DNA of 22,736 nt from Planctomycetota bacterium (GTDB lineage Bacteria; Planctomycetota; Phycisphaerae; UBA1845). Numbering within the stretch: position 1 is the first letter of the stretch; every line of letters starts with the position of its first letter. This document shows, one piece after another, positions 10,041 through 13,060 of the stretch. The stretch lies in assembly GCA_024278775.1 (NCBI GenBank), contig JAJRSP010000030.1, forward strand, positions 1 to 22,736, in the 5' to 3' direction. The translations under genes were made by a program, and so were the position numbers. Under the pieces are notes generated by a model, which worked only from the letters and a program-made list of their open reading frames with translations, was not told the DNA's origin and did not search any database.

Positions 10041-10862
10041 CTACCTCTTCGCCTGCAAACCGCGCAATCGATCCTTCAATTGCGATAACGCACTTCCATG
10101 AAACGCCACACGCCGAGATGGCGCGACCGAATCCCTATCGCCGGCCCCCGCTTCGGTCAAACCTTCACCAAGATCAAGGTCGAAGGCATCCGCCTCGCGC
10201 GCGATCAGCTTATCGAACCCCTTCGCCGCCGGAACGATCCCGTCACCGACCTTCGCTACGAGTTCAGCCACCTCATCGCCGTCGGTGATCTCTGCAAGCG
10301 GAGTGATGCGCTCGCCGGACAATCCGATCAGCACAAACCGCCGACCAATCCGCAGCAACGCCACGTTGTGTTTGGGGGAGACCGCCGAACGAGCCACGAC
10401 ACGAAGCACGGCGCTGTCCGCGGTGCGAAATGAAGGCACGAACCGCCGGGCCAACCAATACACACCCGCCACCAGACTTAACACAATCGCCAGCGACACC
10501 AGACTCGATCGGTACCACGGCACGGTGAGGGTCTGACGGGGCGGTTCTTCGGTACCGGACCGTGCGGCACTACGTCGGCGTACCCACCTGACCGTAGAGG
10601 ATGCCGCGGGGGCATCGGCCGCTACCGCTTCATCCGCGGGGGAGCCGGTCTTGGCGACCAGACCAAGCTGCGCACCGGCCACGGGTTCCACGTCAACGGC
10701 ATGATCAGCTTCGAGCACCGAGACACTCTGATTCGGTGCCACAGCCTCACGCGATGCGTCATGTCCGGAGGAAGCGTACAGCGGCGGGACGGGGCCACCG
10801 ACCAATGCGGCCACCCCAGCGCAGAGACAAATTCCAGTCTTCCTCCATGAAGCCATGCTCAT
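10041..10862 (-). CDS. fliO: Flagellar biosynthesis protein FliO (FliZ-type)
   Basis: FliO assists assembly of the FliP ring in the membrane. The 273-residue protein is long for this family. It has a likely N-terminal signal peptide (residues 1 to about 31, hydrophobic core ICLCAGVAALVG), then a periplasmic Ala/Glu/Val-rich region of about 85 residues. A single membrane helix follows at about 119-138 (SSLVSLAIVLSLVAGVYWLA), then a cytoplasmic domain with the FliO hallmark RRFVLIGLSGERITPLAEI (174-192). The C-terminal tail is variable. A GGAGG site precedes both the ATG at 10862 and a second ATG at 10856, so the start could be either. It follows fliN by 41 bases and precedes fliP. The layout resembles Bacillus FliZ/FliO. 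Confidence 0.9.
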   Translation of the reverse strand: MSMASWRKTGICLCAGVAALVGGPVPPLYASSGHDASREAVAPNQSVSVLEADHAVDVEPVAGAQLGLVAKTGSPADEAVAADAPAASSTVRWVRRRSAARSGTEEPPRQTLTVPWYRSSLVSLAIVLSLVAGVYWLARRFVPSFRTADSAVLRVVARSAVSPKHNVALLRIGRRFVLIGLSGERITPLAEITDGDEVAELVAKVGDGIVPAAKGFDKLIAREADAFDLDLGEGLTEAGAGDRDSVAPSRRVAFHGSALSQLKDRLRGLQAKR

Positions 10863-10903: not shown

Positions 10904-11710
10904 CTACGCACTCACGCGATGCGGATCGTTCGAGATCACATCACTGATACGCACGCAGAAGTTATCGTTCAACACGAGCACTTCTCCGCGTGCCACCAAC
11001 CTGTCATTCACATATACATCTACGGGATCGCCGGCCAGCTTGTCAAGCTCGACGACGGCCCCCTCACCCAGTTGCAGCACATCCTCCACCAACATACGTG
11101 TTCTACCGAGCTCAATCTTCACACGCAGCTTGACATCATTGAGCATGCTCACCCGGTTGGCATCAGCGCTGGCAATCGTAGCATCAAAGTTCGTCAGGCT
11201 CGGTGGTGCCGAACCCGGAGGTGGGGGCGGAATCGGCGCAGCGGGGGCGGGGGCAGGCGCACTAGCCGCCGCCGCTTTTTCCTCTTCTATCGCGGCCTGC
11301 ATCATCGCCGCCGCTTCATCAAACGGACGCCCCATCGAATCGACTCGGTCATCGGGCGGAGACTCCGCCGCGTGCTCACTTCCACCCTTGTCCTCGGATG
11401 ACGTCTCGGAACCGGATTCCAAACCACTCAACAATGCGTCGATGTCGTCCTGTGAAACAGCCCCCGAAGGCTCAGCCGCCGGCGTCTCTGTCGCACCGGC
11501 ATCACCGCCCTCAGCACTAGCGCTCAACAAGGCGTCAATATCGGCTTGCGAAACCGCACCCGATTCCGCCTGCGAAGCGTCACCCTGATCTTCCGGGGAT
11601 GTCGCTTCGCTGGAAGCGGCTCCGCCGCTCATCAGCGCGTCGATATCCGCCTGGCTAAACCCGGCATCTCCCGACGACGCTGCGCCCGCTTGGCTCGGAT
11701 CGTCACTCAT
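10904..11710 (-). CDS. fliN: Flagellar C-ring protein FliN with three FliM-like CheY-docking motifs
   Basis: FliN forms the base of the C-ring switch and docks the export ATPase complex. The C-terminal SpoA domain is clear at about residues 188-262 (LNDVKLRVKIELGRTRMLVE and later GEVLVLNDNFCVRISDVI). The protein is 268 residues, against about 140 in E. coli FliN. The extra N-terminal half is acidic and Ser/Ala-rich and holds three near-identical motifs: FSQADIDALMS (18-28), VSQADIDALLS (53-63) and VSQDDIDALLS (85-95). A predicted helix (DEAAAMMQAAIEEEKAAAAS, 131-150) and a Pro/Ala linker (151-170) follow. The motif matches the CheY-P binding peptide at the start of FliM. Only one SpoA domain is present and no FliM middle (CheC-like) domain, so this is not a FliY or FliM-FliN fusion. 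It follows fliL by 80 bases, with no fliM between. Confidence 0.94.
   Translation of the reverse strand: MSDDPSQAGAASSGDAGFSQADIDALMSGGAASSEATSPEDQGDASQAESGAVSQADIDALLSASAEGGDAGATETPAAEPSGAVSQDDIDALLSGLESGSETSSEDKGGSEHAAESPPDDRVDSMGRPFDEAAAMMQAAIEEEKAAAASAPAPAPAAPIPPPPPGSAPPSLTNFDATIASADANRVSMLNDVKLRVKIELGRTRMLVEDVLQLGEGAVVELDKLAGDPVDVYVNDRLVARGEVLVLNDNFCVRISDVISNDPHRVSA
11426..11659 (-). repeat. Three coding repeats of the S-Q-x-D-I-D-A-L-L/M-S motif in fliN
   Basis: Three 11-residue units lie in frame at 11627-11659, 11522-11554 and 11426-11458 on the minus strand. They start 35 and 32 residues apart. Separating residues are acidic and Ser/Ala/Gly-rich and do not repeat. The units share Ser-Gln, Asp-Ile-Asp-Ala-Leu and a final Ser, with small changes at positions 1, 4 and 10, so they are amplified or convergent short motifs, not a recent large duplication. 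Confidence 0.9.
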
Positions 11711-11790: not shown

Positions 11791-12309
11791 TCAAACACCC
11801 GGTCGCGATTGTAGCAACTGCGGAATCAACACATCCTGAATCACATCTTCGTCGCCGAAGATTCGATCGAACTCATACTTCAAGCGTCGCCGAATGGTTC
11901 CCAAGTCCGGCTCATCCAAGTGTTTCGGGTCGGCACTACGTATCACTACATTGACAGCGTCTTCAAGCCGCGCACGGCGCGACTGCGTAAGCGATTCGAT
12001 CTCGGTAAGCCGATCGGCCTGTACCAGCCCTAATACGCGGATGTGATACGTAATGAACCGACCCGCCATTCTATTACTGGGGCGACACTCGGCCAACTCA
12101 ATCTCTGCGAGATCAGTCATTTTAGCACTGTCATCGCCCTCTCCCTCCGCCGCCGCAGCCTGTGGGGGAGGGGGGCTCAGCATGTTGGCGAGAAAATACA
12201 CCCCCGCCCCCTCACCGAGCATCAATGCCGCGACGACGACGATCGACAAACGACGCCCTGACGACGGTGGCGCGTCACCAGACGCATCGGTATTCTTTTT
12301 ATCAGCCAT
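11791..12309 (-). CDS. fliL: Flagellar basal body-associated protein FliL
   Basis: FliL surrounds the stator at the inner membrane and supports torque or stator stability. The 172-residue protein has a short polar N-terminus, one membrane helix at about residues 20-44 (LSIVVVAALMLGEGAGVYFLA) and a Pro/Ala linker. A periplasmic domain of about 110 residues follows, with the family pattern ITYHIRVLGLV and RLKYEFDRIFGDEDVIQDVL near the end. The ATG at 12307-12309 is chosen because GGAG precedes it by 7 bases. The start lies inside the end of motB (8-base overlap), so the two are probably translationally coupled, consistent with a stator role. The frame is open further upstream to 12351, but that is basic sequence inside motB. 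Confidence 0.93.
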   Translation of the reverse strand: MADKKNTDASGDAPPSSGRRLSIVVVAALMLGEGAGVYFLANMLSPPPPQAAAAEGEGDDSAKMTDLAEIELAECRPSNRMAGRFITYHIRVLGLVQADRLTEIESLTQSRRARLEDAVNVVIRSADPKHLDEPDLGTIRRRLKYEFDRIFGDEDVIQDVLIPQLLQSRPGV

Positions 12310-13060
12310 GGGAAGACTCCTTCGTTTCCTGAGCGGGCGTGCTACCCGCAAAATCTTCGATCAAGTCTTCCGTGACCAAAATTTCCACGCGGCGATTCAA
12401 CGAACGCCGCTCCTCCGTATAGGCCTGGCGCACCAGGGGTTCATTGTCACCGACAGCCACGAGTAACAGCCGCTCCGGACGAACCCCATGCTCCACCAAC
12501 ACGCGTGCGGCTGCTCGGGCCCGCGCGTACGACAGATCGCGGTCGTCCTCATAGAGCGAATCGGGTGGCAGCGGTTCACGTGTGGCATGCCCCCTCACCA
12601 GGATCTTGGTGTTGTAGCCGCGTAAACGTTCGGCCGTTTGCCCCAGCAGGTCTCGGGCCTCCGGCTTGAGCGTCGCACTGAAGCGGCTAAAGCTAATCCG
12701 ACCACCGACGACAACCTCCAATCCATCGCGTACGTCAGTGACGCGGAACTTTTTCCCGTGAATCCCCTCTTCCTCGGAATCACCACGATCTTTCGTAAAA
12801 ATAGGAACCTCGAGCTCCAGCAACTTCTGAATCAACGTATTCGCCGTATCGGCTTCGAGTGGCGTGGCCCCGACCGAGCCCACATATCCACCAAACGCAC
12901 GACGAAGTGACTCCATGACCCGTTGGAAACGCTGATCCCGCTTTTGCTCACTCATCGAAACAATAATGACAAAGAAGCACAGCAGGAGCGTCATGGCGTC
13001 ACCGTAGGTGACCATCCACTCAGGAGCCCCGGCCGGAGGATCTGGTTGTTTTCCCGGCAT
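12302..13060 (-). CDS. motB: Flagellar stator protein MotB
   Basis: MotB anchors the MotA5B2 stator to peptidoglycan and carries the proton-binding aspartate. The 252-residue protein starts P-G-K-Q-P-D-P-P. One membrane helix runs at about residues 16-37, with the likely ion-binding Asp21 in YGDAMTLLLCFFVIIVSM. A periplasmic linker and plug region follow. The OmpA-like peptidoglycan-binding domain covers about 115-230, with ILVRGHAT, DLSYARARAAARVLVEHGV and the signature R-S-L-N-R-R-V-E-I (219-227). The ATG at 13058-13060 has GGAG 6 bases upstream. It is 9 bases after motA and overlaps fliL. The motor ion (H+ or Na+) cannot be settled by eye. Confidence 0.96.
   Translation of the reverse strand: MPGKQPDPPAGAPEWMVTYGDAMTLLLCFFVIIVSMSEQKRDQRFQRVMESLRRAFGGYVGSVGATPLEADTANTLIQKLLELEVPIFTKDRGDSEEEGIHGKKFRVTDVRDGLEVVVGGRISFSRFSATLKPEARDLLGQTAERLRGYNTKILVRGHATREPLPPDSLYEDDRDLSYARARAAARVLVEHGVRPERLLLVAVGDNEPLVRQAYTEERRSLNRRVEILVTEDLIEDFAGSTPAQETKESSHG

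Follow-up and report, generated by a model that had tools for sequence, protein, structure and literature searches.

Three FliM-type CheY-docking-like peptides in a planctomycete FliN suggest a multivalent CheY dock

The FliN protein encoded in the window (the whole stretch of planctomycete DNA analysed here, 22,736 nucleotides) carries in its N-terminal half three copies of a peptide resembling the CheY-docking peptide of FliM. The best reading of this arrangement, and a probable one on sequence comparison and structure prediction, is that this half of FliN acts as a multivalent dock for phosphorylated CheY (CheY~P) on the C-ring. Most studies of how CheY~P occupancy leads to switching and its steep cooperativity concern motors in which each FliM has a single tether. 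If each FliN brought three further tethers, a FliM1/FliN3 unit would hold ten peptides as against the usual one, and the spread among relatives, from no copy to three or more, would let the tether be studied apart from the switching site.

FliN and its genetic context

The window contains a minus-strand flagellar cluster in which fliG, motA, motB, a fliL-like gene, fliN, a fliO-like gene, flhF, a MinD-like (flhG-like) gene and fliA are matched by models. From the translations of their open reading frames, others are presumably fliH, fliI, fliJ, fliK, flgD, flgE, fliP, fliQ, fliR, flhB and flhA. The fliN gene lies between its fliL-like and fliO-like neighbours (Table 1), an order kept in relatives at those loci in which these neighbours could be identified. 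In many bacteria fliM is located between fliL and fliN; in the window, no fliM was found between the fliL-like gene and fliN.

The identity of FliN is supported by TIGR02480 (103.4 bits, above the cut-off of 84.05), and the FliY models remain below their cut-offs (NF005995, 122.7 against 218; NF006272, 78.2 against 219). The only Pfam family matched is PF01052, in a single domain, which bears out the description of this protein as a single-SpoA FliN. The strict pattern SQxDIDAL[LM]S is matched exactly three times, at aa 19, 54 and 86, all N-terminal to SpoA; these are the three copies reported in the preliminary description, whose span for the array (11426-11659) is correct to within one codon. 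S, A, D, E and G are abundant in the linkers between the peptides. In the conserved box DDRVDSMGRPFDEAAAMMQAAIEEEKA, the R, P and F of GRPF are invariant across 30 sequences.

Table 1. Features of fliN and its neighbours; window coordinates of the peptides were computed from their amino-acid positions
Feature	Position	Strand	Basis or remark
fliN, 268 aa, ATG start	10904..11710	minus	ORF; three peptides, conserved RPFD box, Pro-rich linker, SpoA
CheY-docking-like peptide 1, SQADIDALMS, aa 19-28	11627..11656	minus	strict pattern match
CheY-docking-like peptide 2, SQADIDALLS, aa 54-63	11522..11551	minus	strict pattern match
CheY-docking-like peptide 3, SQDDIDALLS, aa 86-95	11426..11455	minus	strict pattern match
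Conserved box DDRVDSMGRPFDEAAAMMQAAIEEEKA, aa 120-146	11273..11353	minus	between the peptides and the Pro-rich linker; partly predicted helix
SpoA (FliMN_C) domain, aa 189-259	10934..11146	minus	PF01052, 84.9 bits
fliL-like gene, directly upstream of fliN	11791..12351	minus	weak NF009420 match, 17.2 bits against a cut-off of 197
fliO-like gene, directly downstream of fliN	10041..10862	minus	TIGR03500, 51 bits, just under the cut-off of 55.25

A chance origin of the triple peptide was rejected: when aa 1-118 were shuffled 20000 times, the strict pattern occurred in 0 shuffles and the loose core xQx[DEA][ILVM][DEN]x[LMIFV][LMIFV] in 12, once in each. At the nucleotide level, pairs of copies match at only 20, 21 and 23 of 30 positions, and a fresh duplication was therefore rejected as well.

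The AlphaFold2 model of FliN (alignment A1, 30 rows) is poor overall, with a mean pLDDT of 61.3 and a pTM of 0.27. Within this poor global model, made with no partner present, each peptide is predicted to form a separate helix, with a block pLDDT of 72-79 against about 40 in the linkers, and the stretches between these helices are predicted to be disordered or are of low confidence. The query lacked the initial Met, so that one is added to model numbers to give protein numbers; in the latter the helices cover aa 20-27, 55-64 and 87-99 for peptides 1, 2 and 3, respectively. A fourth helix, aa 132-150, is placed within the box.

Selection on the peptides

The closest relative, locus L001 of genome G001, encodes a FliN that is 72% identical and likewise has three copies; identity across four export proteins is 87%. 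Between the two loci, pN/pS is 0.06 for the peptides and 0.05 for SpoA, against 0.40 for the linkers. The share of amino-acid-changing sites that have changed is 0.047 in the peptides, 0.021 in SpoA and 0.295 in the linkers, and 0.77 of the synonymous sites in the peptides have changed. The conserved box, placed by script, has a pN/pS of 0.05 and thus a constraint at the level of SpoA.

Five further pairs were run. For peptides and linkers, respectively, pN/pS is 0.06 and 0.66 (L009/L007), 0.12 and 0.54 (L003/L035), 0.19 and 0.67 (L005/L003, where the synonymous estimate exceeds 1 and is hence saturated) and 0.08 and 0.35 (L009/L030, with one copy in a gap). In the pair L040/L039, where the script found no RPFD box and the linkers went unscored as a separate class, the peptides stand at 0.03 against 0.22 for all remaining sequence before SpoA. 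These ratios indicate that the peptides are under purifying selection. They bear directly on the idea that the repeats are a functionless, drifting low-complexity expansion, as the loose-core copy number (0 to 6), the variable spacing and the composition of the linkers might suggest: with peptides constrained like SpoA against L001 while the linkers diverge, drift is disfavoured and we regard it as very improbable.

Peptide copies in homologues and genomes

The preliminary description had proposed counting motifs in FliN homologues. Among the 120 homologues listed of 7690 found, at least two loose cores occur in 97, one in 22 and none in 1; a stricter pattern, which did not admit D, N or G as first residue, gave at least two copies in 28 of the 120. 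The 120 listed homologues supply 266 peptide instances. At places left free by the pattern, the residue six positions past the first one of the peptide is A in 93%, and the residue just before the first one is I, V or F in 86%. The first peptide residue itself is S in 57%, D in 16%, N in 14% and G in 7%. PF28396 is listed for many of these homologues.

Copies were also counted in 120 genomes with a FliN frame, on stop-to-stop frames rather than called genes: none in 85, one in 10, two in 17 and three or more in 8. This set combines 80 loci with 40 genomes from a 101-genome draw of the class of G020; 54 genomes of this class passed the FliN cut-off, and G124 was left out. Being those that match the query best, the 80 loci lean towards FliN proteins like that of the window.

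A tree of FliP, FliR, FlhB and FlhA (FastTree, 70 rows) includes 69 of the 80 loci. The 11 loci with too few columns were left off; they include L002 and L012, with two copies each, and L035, with three. The window pairs with L001 within a 35-row clade in which most records bear the title Phycisphaerae or Planctomycetota. Of the 22 multi-copy loci included in the tree, 20 fall in this clade; the other two are L047 (titled Pirellulaceae, four copies) and L074 (two). The presence of at least two FliN copies has changed at least 10 times on the tree. One record, L039, is titled Alphaproteobacteria; its flagellar proteins group tightly with the Phycisphaerae-titled L040 and L031, and it is probably a mislabelled MAG.

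A search of 22 genomes with the DNA form of QxDIDxLL gave four matches in G001, three of them in FliN. In G006 and in G008, one of the matches falls in a second FliN-like gene. With the pattern reversed as a control, each genome gave 0 or 1 match.

Association with chemotaxis genes

CheW was searched for in the 120 genomes. All 25 genomes with at least two FliN copies have it; among those with fewer copies, 64 have it and 31 do not (Fisher p 2.4e-4, relatedness ignored). None of the 31 genomes without CheW has more than one copy. The reverse does not hold: FliN has zero copies in 57 of the 89 genomes with CheW, which counts against the CheY-dock reading. Most of the genomes are MAGs, and absences may therefore be gaps.

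Within the window's clade (34 rows with known CheW), CheW is present in all 20 loci with at least two copies and, among those with fewer, present in 6 and missing from 8. CheW is absent at four points of this clade. L045, L052 and L053 have 0 copies and their sister L028 has 2; L024 has 0 and its sister L006 has 3; L020, L025 and L029 have 0, 0 and 1, and their sister L004 has 2; L019 has 1 copy, as does its sister L021. Independent pairs gave 3.1 concordant and 0 opposed for at least two copies and 3.1 concordant and 0.2 opposed for at least one (median p 0.25 in each case, with too few pairs to decide). The phylogeny-aware test agrees in direction with the association and is not significant.

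The CheA dimerisation family was found in 28 of the 39 genomes examined. The 11 misses are eight CheW-less genomes together with G004, G013 and G030, each of which has CheW and two FliN copies; these three either count against the reading or reflect assembly gaps. A strong CheY match (E below 1e-25) was present in 11 of 19 genomes searched, nine of these with at least two FliN copies, and was not found in the other eight, only one of which (G004, with two) is multi-copy. The Fisher p of 0.0055 is only indicative, since the 19 genomes were picked with their CheW status in view. Counter-cases are G024, with a strong CheY and no FliN copy, and G019, with a strong CheY and one copy. In G001, a CheY is encoded near cheA and cheW on contig C36; it keeps the E. 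coli residues D12, D13, D57, T87, K92, Y106, K109 and K119, and K91 is replaced by E.

FliM and the second FliN-like gene in relatives

FliM was searched for in 50 of the 80 locus genomes and found in 46, including the closest relative, with one match each. Its N-terminal peptide occurs exactly once in all 46, mostly as LDQxEVDALLAAV, with L just before the first residue of the core in every case. In all 14 genomes for which both places are listed, fliM lies away from fliN, on another contig or, in G024, about 1 Mb off. The preliminary description had raised the possibility that FliN has taken over CheY binding from FliM. With a peptide-bearing FliM in 46 of the 50 genomes, FliN has not replaced FliM there, and a takeover finds no support among these relatives. 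A normal FliM elsewhere in the genome, which the same description had set against a role for the FliN peptides, is thus present in relatives, although its presence alone leaves such a role possible. No FliM was found in G010, G011, G012 and G037 of the 50 genomes searched, and FliN may have taken over CheY binding in these four; G010 and G012 have two FliN copies each.

The FliM peptide is intact in six CheW-less genomes (G019, G020, G024, G025, G029 and G045; FliM loci L084, L096, L107, L116, L124 and L126), and in four of them, G020, G025, G029 and G045, a strong CheY was also not found. The records of G020 and G024 are single chromosomes. Conservation of the peptide in these six genomes is the strongest point against taking a peptide as proof of CheY binding. 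The CheW-less genomes also separate the FliM peptide, which is kept, from the FliN copies, which are few or none.

Both observations bear on whether the FliN peptides bind something other than chemotaxis CheY, for example a different protein with a receiver domain (an adaptor that is CheY-like or controlled by c-di-GMP) or some other part of the motor. Because the FliM peptide is kept where CheW and a strong CheY are missing, peptides of this class may have a different partner, and further receiver proteins do occur in relatives. In genomes without CheW, however, FliN copies are scarce, in contrast to the FliM peptide, and another partner seems to us unlikely.

A second SpoA match, outside FliM and below the FliN cut-off, was found in 15 of 16 relatives. 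It belongs to a short second FliN-like gene, at loci that include L257 (G001), L258, L261 and L265. At four loci of this gene we take its neighbours to be ketoacyl synthase (fabF)-like, CCA-adding-type nucleotidyltransferase (pcnB-like) and rsmD-type methyltransferase-like genes. Its product has one peptide near the N-terminus in 11 of 21 loci (G001, G002, where it is weak, G006, G007, G008, G009, G012, G018, G028, G039 and G040), no peptide or only a remnant in 7 (G003, G004, G005, G010, G047, G075 and G144) and a decayed peptide in 3, those of the CheW-less G020, G024 and G025.

Similar arrays on other proteins

With aa 10-100 of FliN as query, 43 matches were obtained at E up to 10. Nine of them are proteins 434-464 aa in length, in which six or seven copies precede an apparent membrane span (P0121-P0126, P0130, P0132 and P0139). 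P0130 passes the FliL model and P0132 falls below its cut-off; no family was found for P0121 and P0122 on the model scan. Three CheZ-family proteins (P0134, P0140 and P0142, the last named Ignavibacteria by its source) have four copies each, in or past the end of the CheZ match. P0133, with seven copies, is similar in appearance.

The CheZ-family and FliL-like arrays hint at a more general solution. CheY-docking arrays could be a recurrent device, on FliN in the planctomycete clade (with single copies on FliM and on the orphan second FliN), on the tails of CheZ and ahead of the membrane span of FliL-like proteins in other bacteria. With such arrays, the motor or the region around it would work as a multivalent trap for CheY~P, with a copy number that changes rapidly in evolution and decays as chemotaxis is lost. 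We put this forward tentatively, as a possibility a little short of even.

The arrays on CheZ-family proteins in other records also suggest a different use of CheY~P binding, in which the peptides would serve as a sink or buffer, keeping CheY~P from the switching site and damping noise or ending the signal without promoting switching. None of the 50 relatives searched gave a CheZ, so that another means of limiting CheY~P may be needed. CheZ is, however, just as absent from relatives whose FliN has zero copies, and the peptides are carried by a C-ring subunit, adjoining the switching sites; we consider a sink quite unlikely.

A putative CheY~P dock on the C-ring

The multivalent dock suggested in the preliminary description fits most of the sequence evidence: selection on the peptides, their predicted helices, the association of copy number with chemotaxis genes and the arrays on CheZ-family proteins. 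The FliM peptide kept without CheW and the CheW-bearing genomes with zero FliN copies weigh against it. The dock accounts for the data better than a buffer or a different partner does.

In the dock that we propose, the disordered N-terminal half of FliN would be a string of three docking peptides of the type found at the N-terminus of FliM, each folding into a short helix in the alpha4/alpha5 groove of phosphorylated CheY. Three peptides per FliN would multiply weak CheY~P tethers round the C-ring, because each FliM is accompanied by about three FliN subunits, as known from other bacteria. FliM would contribute its own single peptide and, in many relatives, the short second FliN-like protein would add one. 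CheY~P could thus be captured, kept at a high local concentration and then passed to the FliM and FliN sites where switching occurs. CheY binding, its dependence on phosphorylation, the hand-over and the effect on switching are steps that we infer.

Published work, as far as the sections of each source consulted extend, provides points on both sides. In sections of PMC9126983, the EIDALL motif of FliM and FliY is reported to bind CheY~P; a FliM peptide has a Kd of 27 uM, and CheY~P binding proceeds in two steps. Sections of PMC6700473 give a FliM:FliN ratio of 1:3 and contacts of CheY~P with the folded part of FliN. According to the same sections, the affinity of E. coli FliN for CheY~P seems to be controlled by its N-terminal region; that this region is dispensable counts against the dock reading. 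Among the matches listed in the literature search, titles and abstract openings make no mention of several CheY peptides in FliN.

Comparison with known systems

The C-terminal CheY-binding peptide of CheZ resembles the FliN motif, and similar peptides, four each, are found in the three CheZ-family proteins described above. Unlike FliN, CheZ is a phosphatase and not a part of the rotor. That a CheZ peptide binds CheY is indicated by the title of a reference in PMC9126983.

In domain plan, the present FliN corresponds to that of E. coli, which has SpoA, a disordered N-terminal region and a place in the C-ring as a subunit contacting CheY~P (PMC6700473, in part). The E. coli protein makes this contact through its folded C-terminal domain, and those sections of the paper mention no peptide array. 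FliY of Bacillus, Thermotoga and Helicobacter is, like this FliN, a FliN-type SpoA protein with an N-terminal EIDALL-type peptide (PMC9126983, in part). The present protein differs from FliY in showing PF01052 only, with no FliY middle domain, and in scoring below the FliY cut-offs.

The N-terminal peptide of FliM (EIDALL; structure 1F4V, named in the sections of PMC9126983 consulted) is the closest counterpart. Typically for FliM and FliY, it is single and located at the extreme N-terminus, whereas FliN has three peptides, two of them far from the N-terminus, and the FliM of relatives keeps its own copy. All three strict matches have the SQxEIDALL-like core, and the FliN peptides are preceded by a hydrophobic residue, as in the FliM of relatives; the helix predicted on each FliN peptide is of moderate local confidence.
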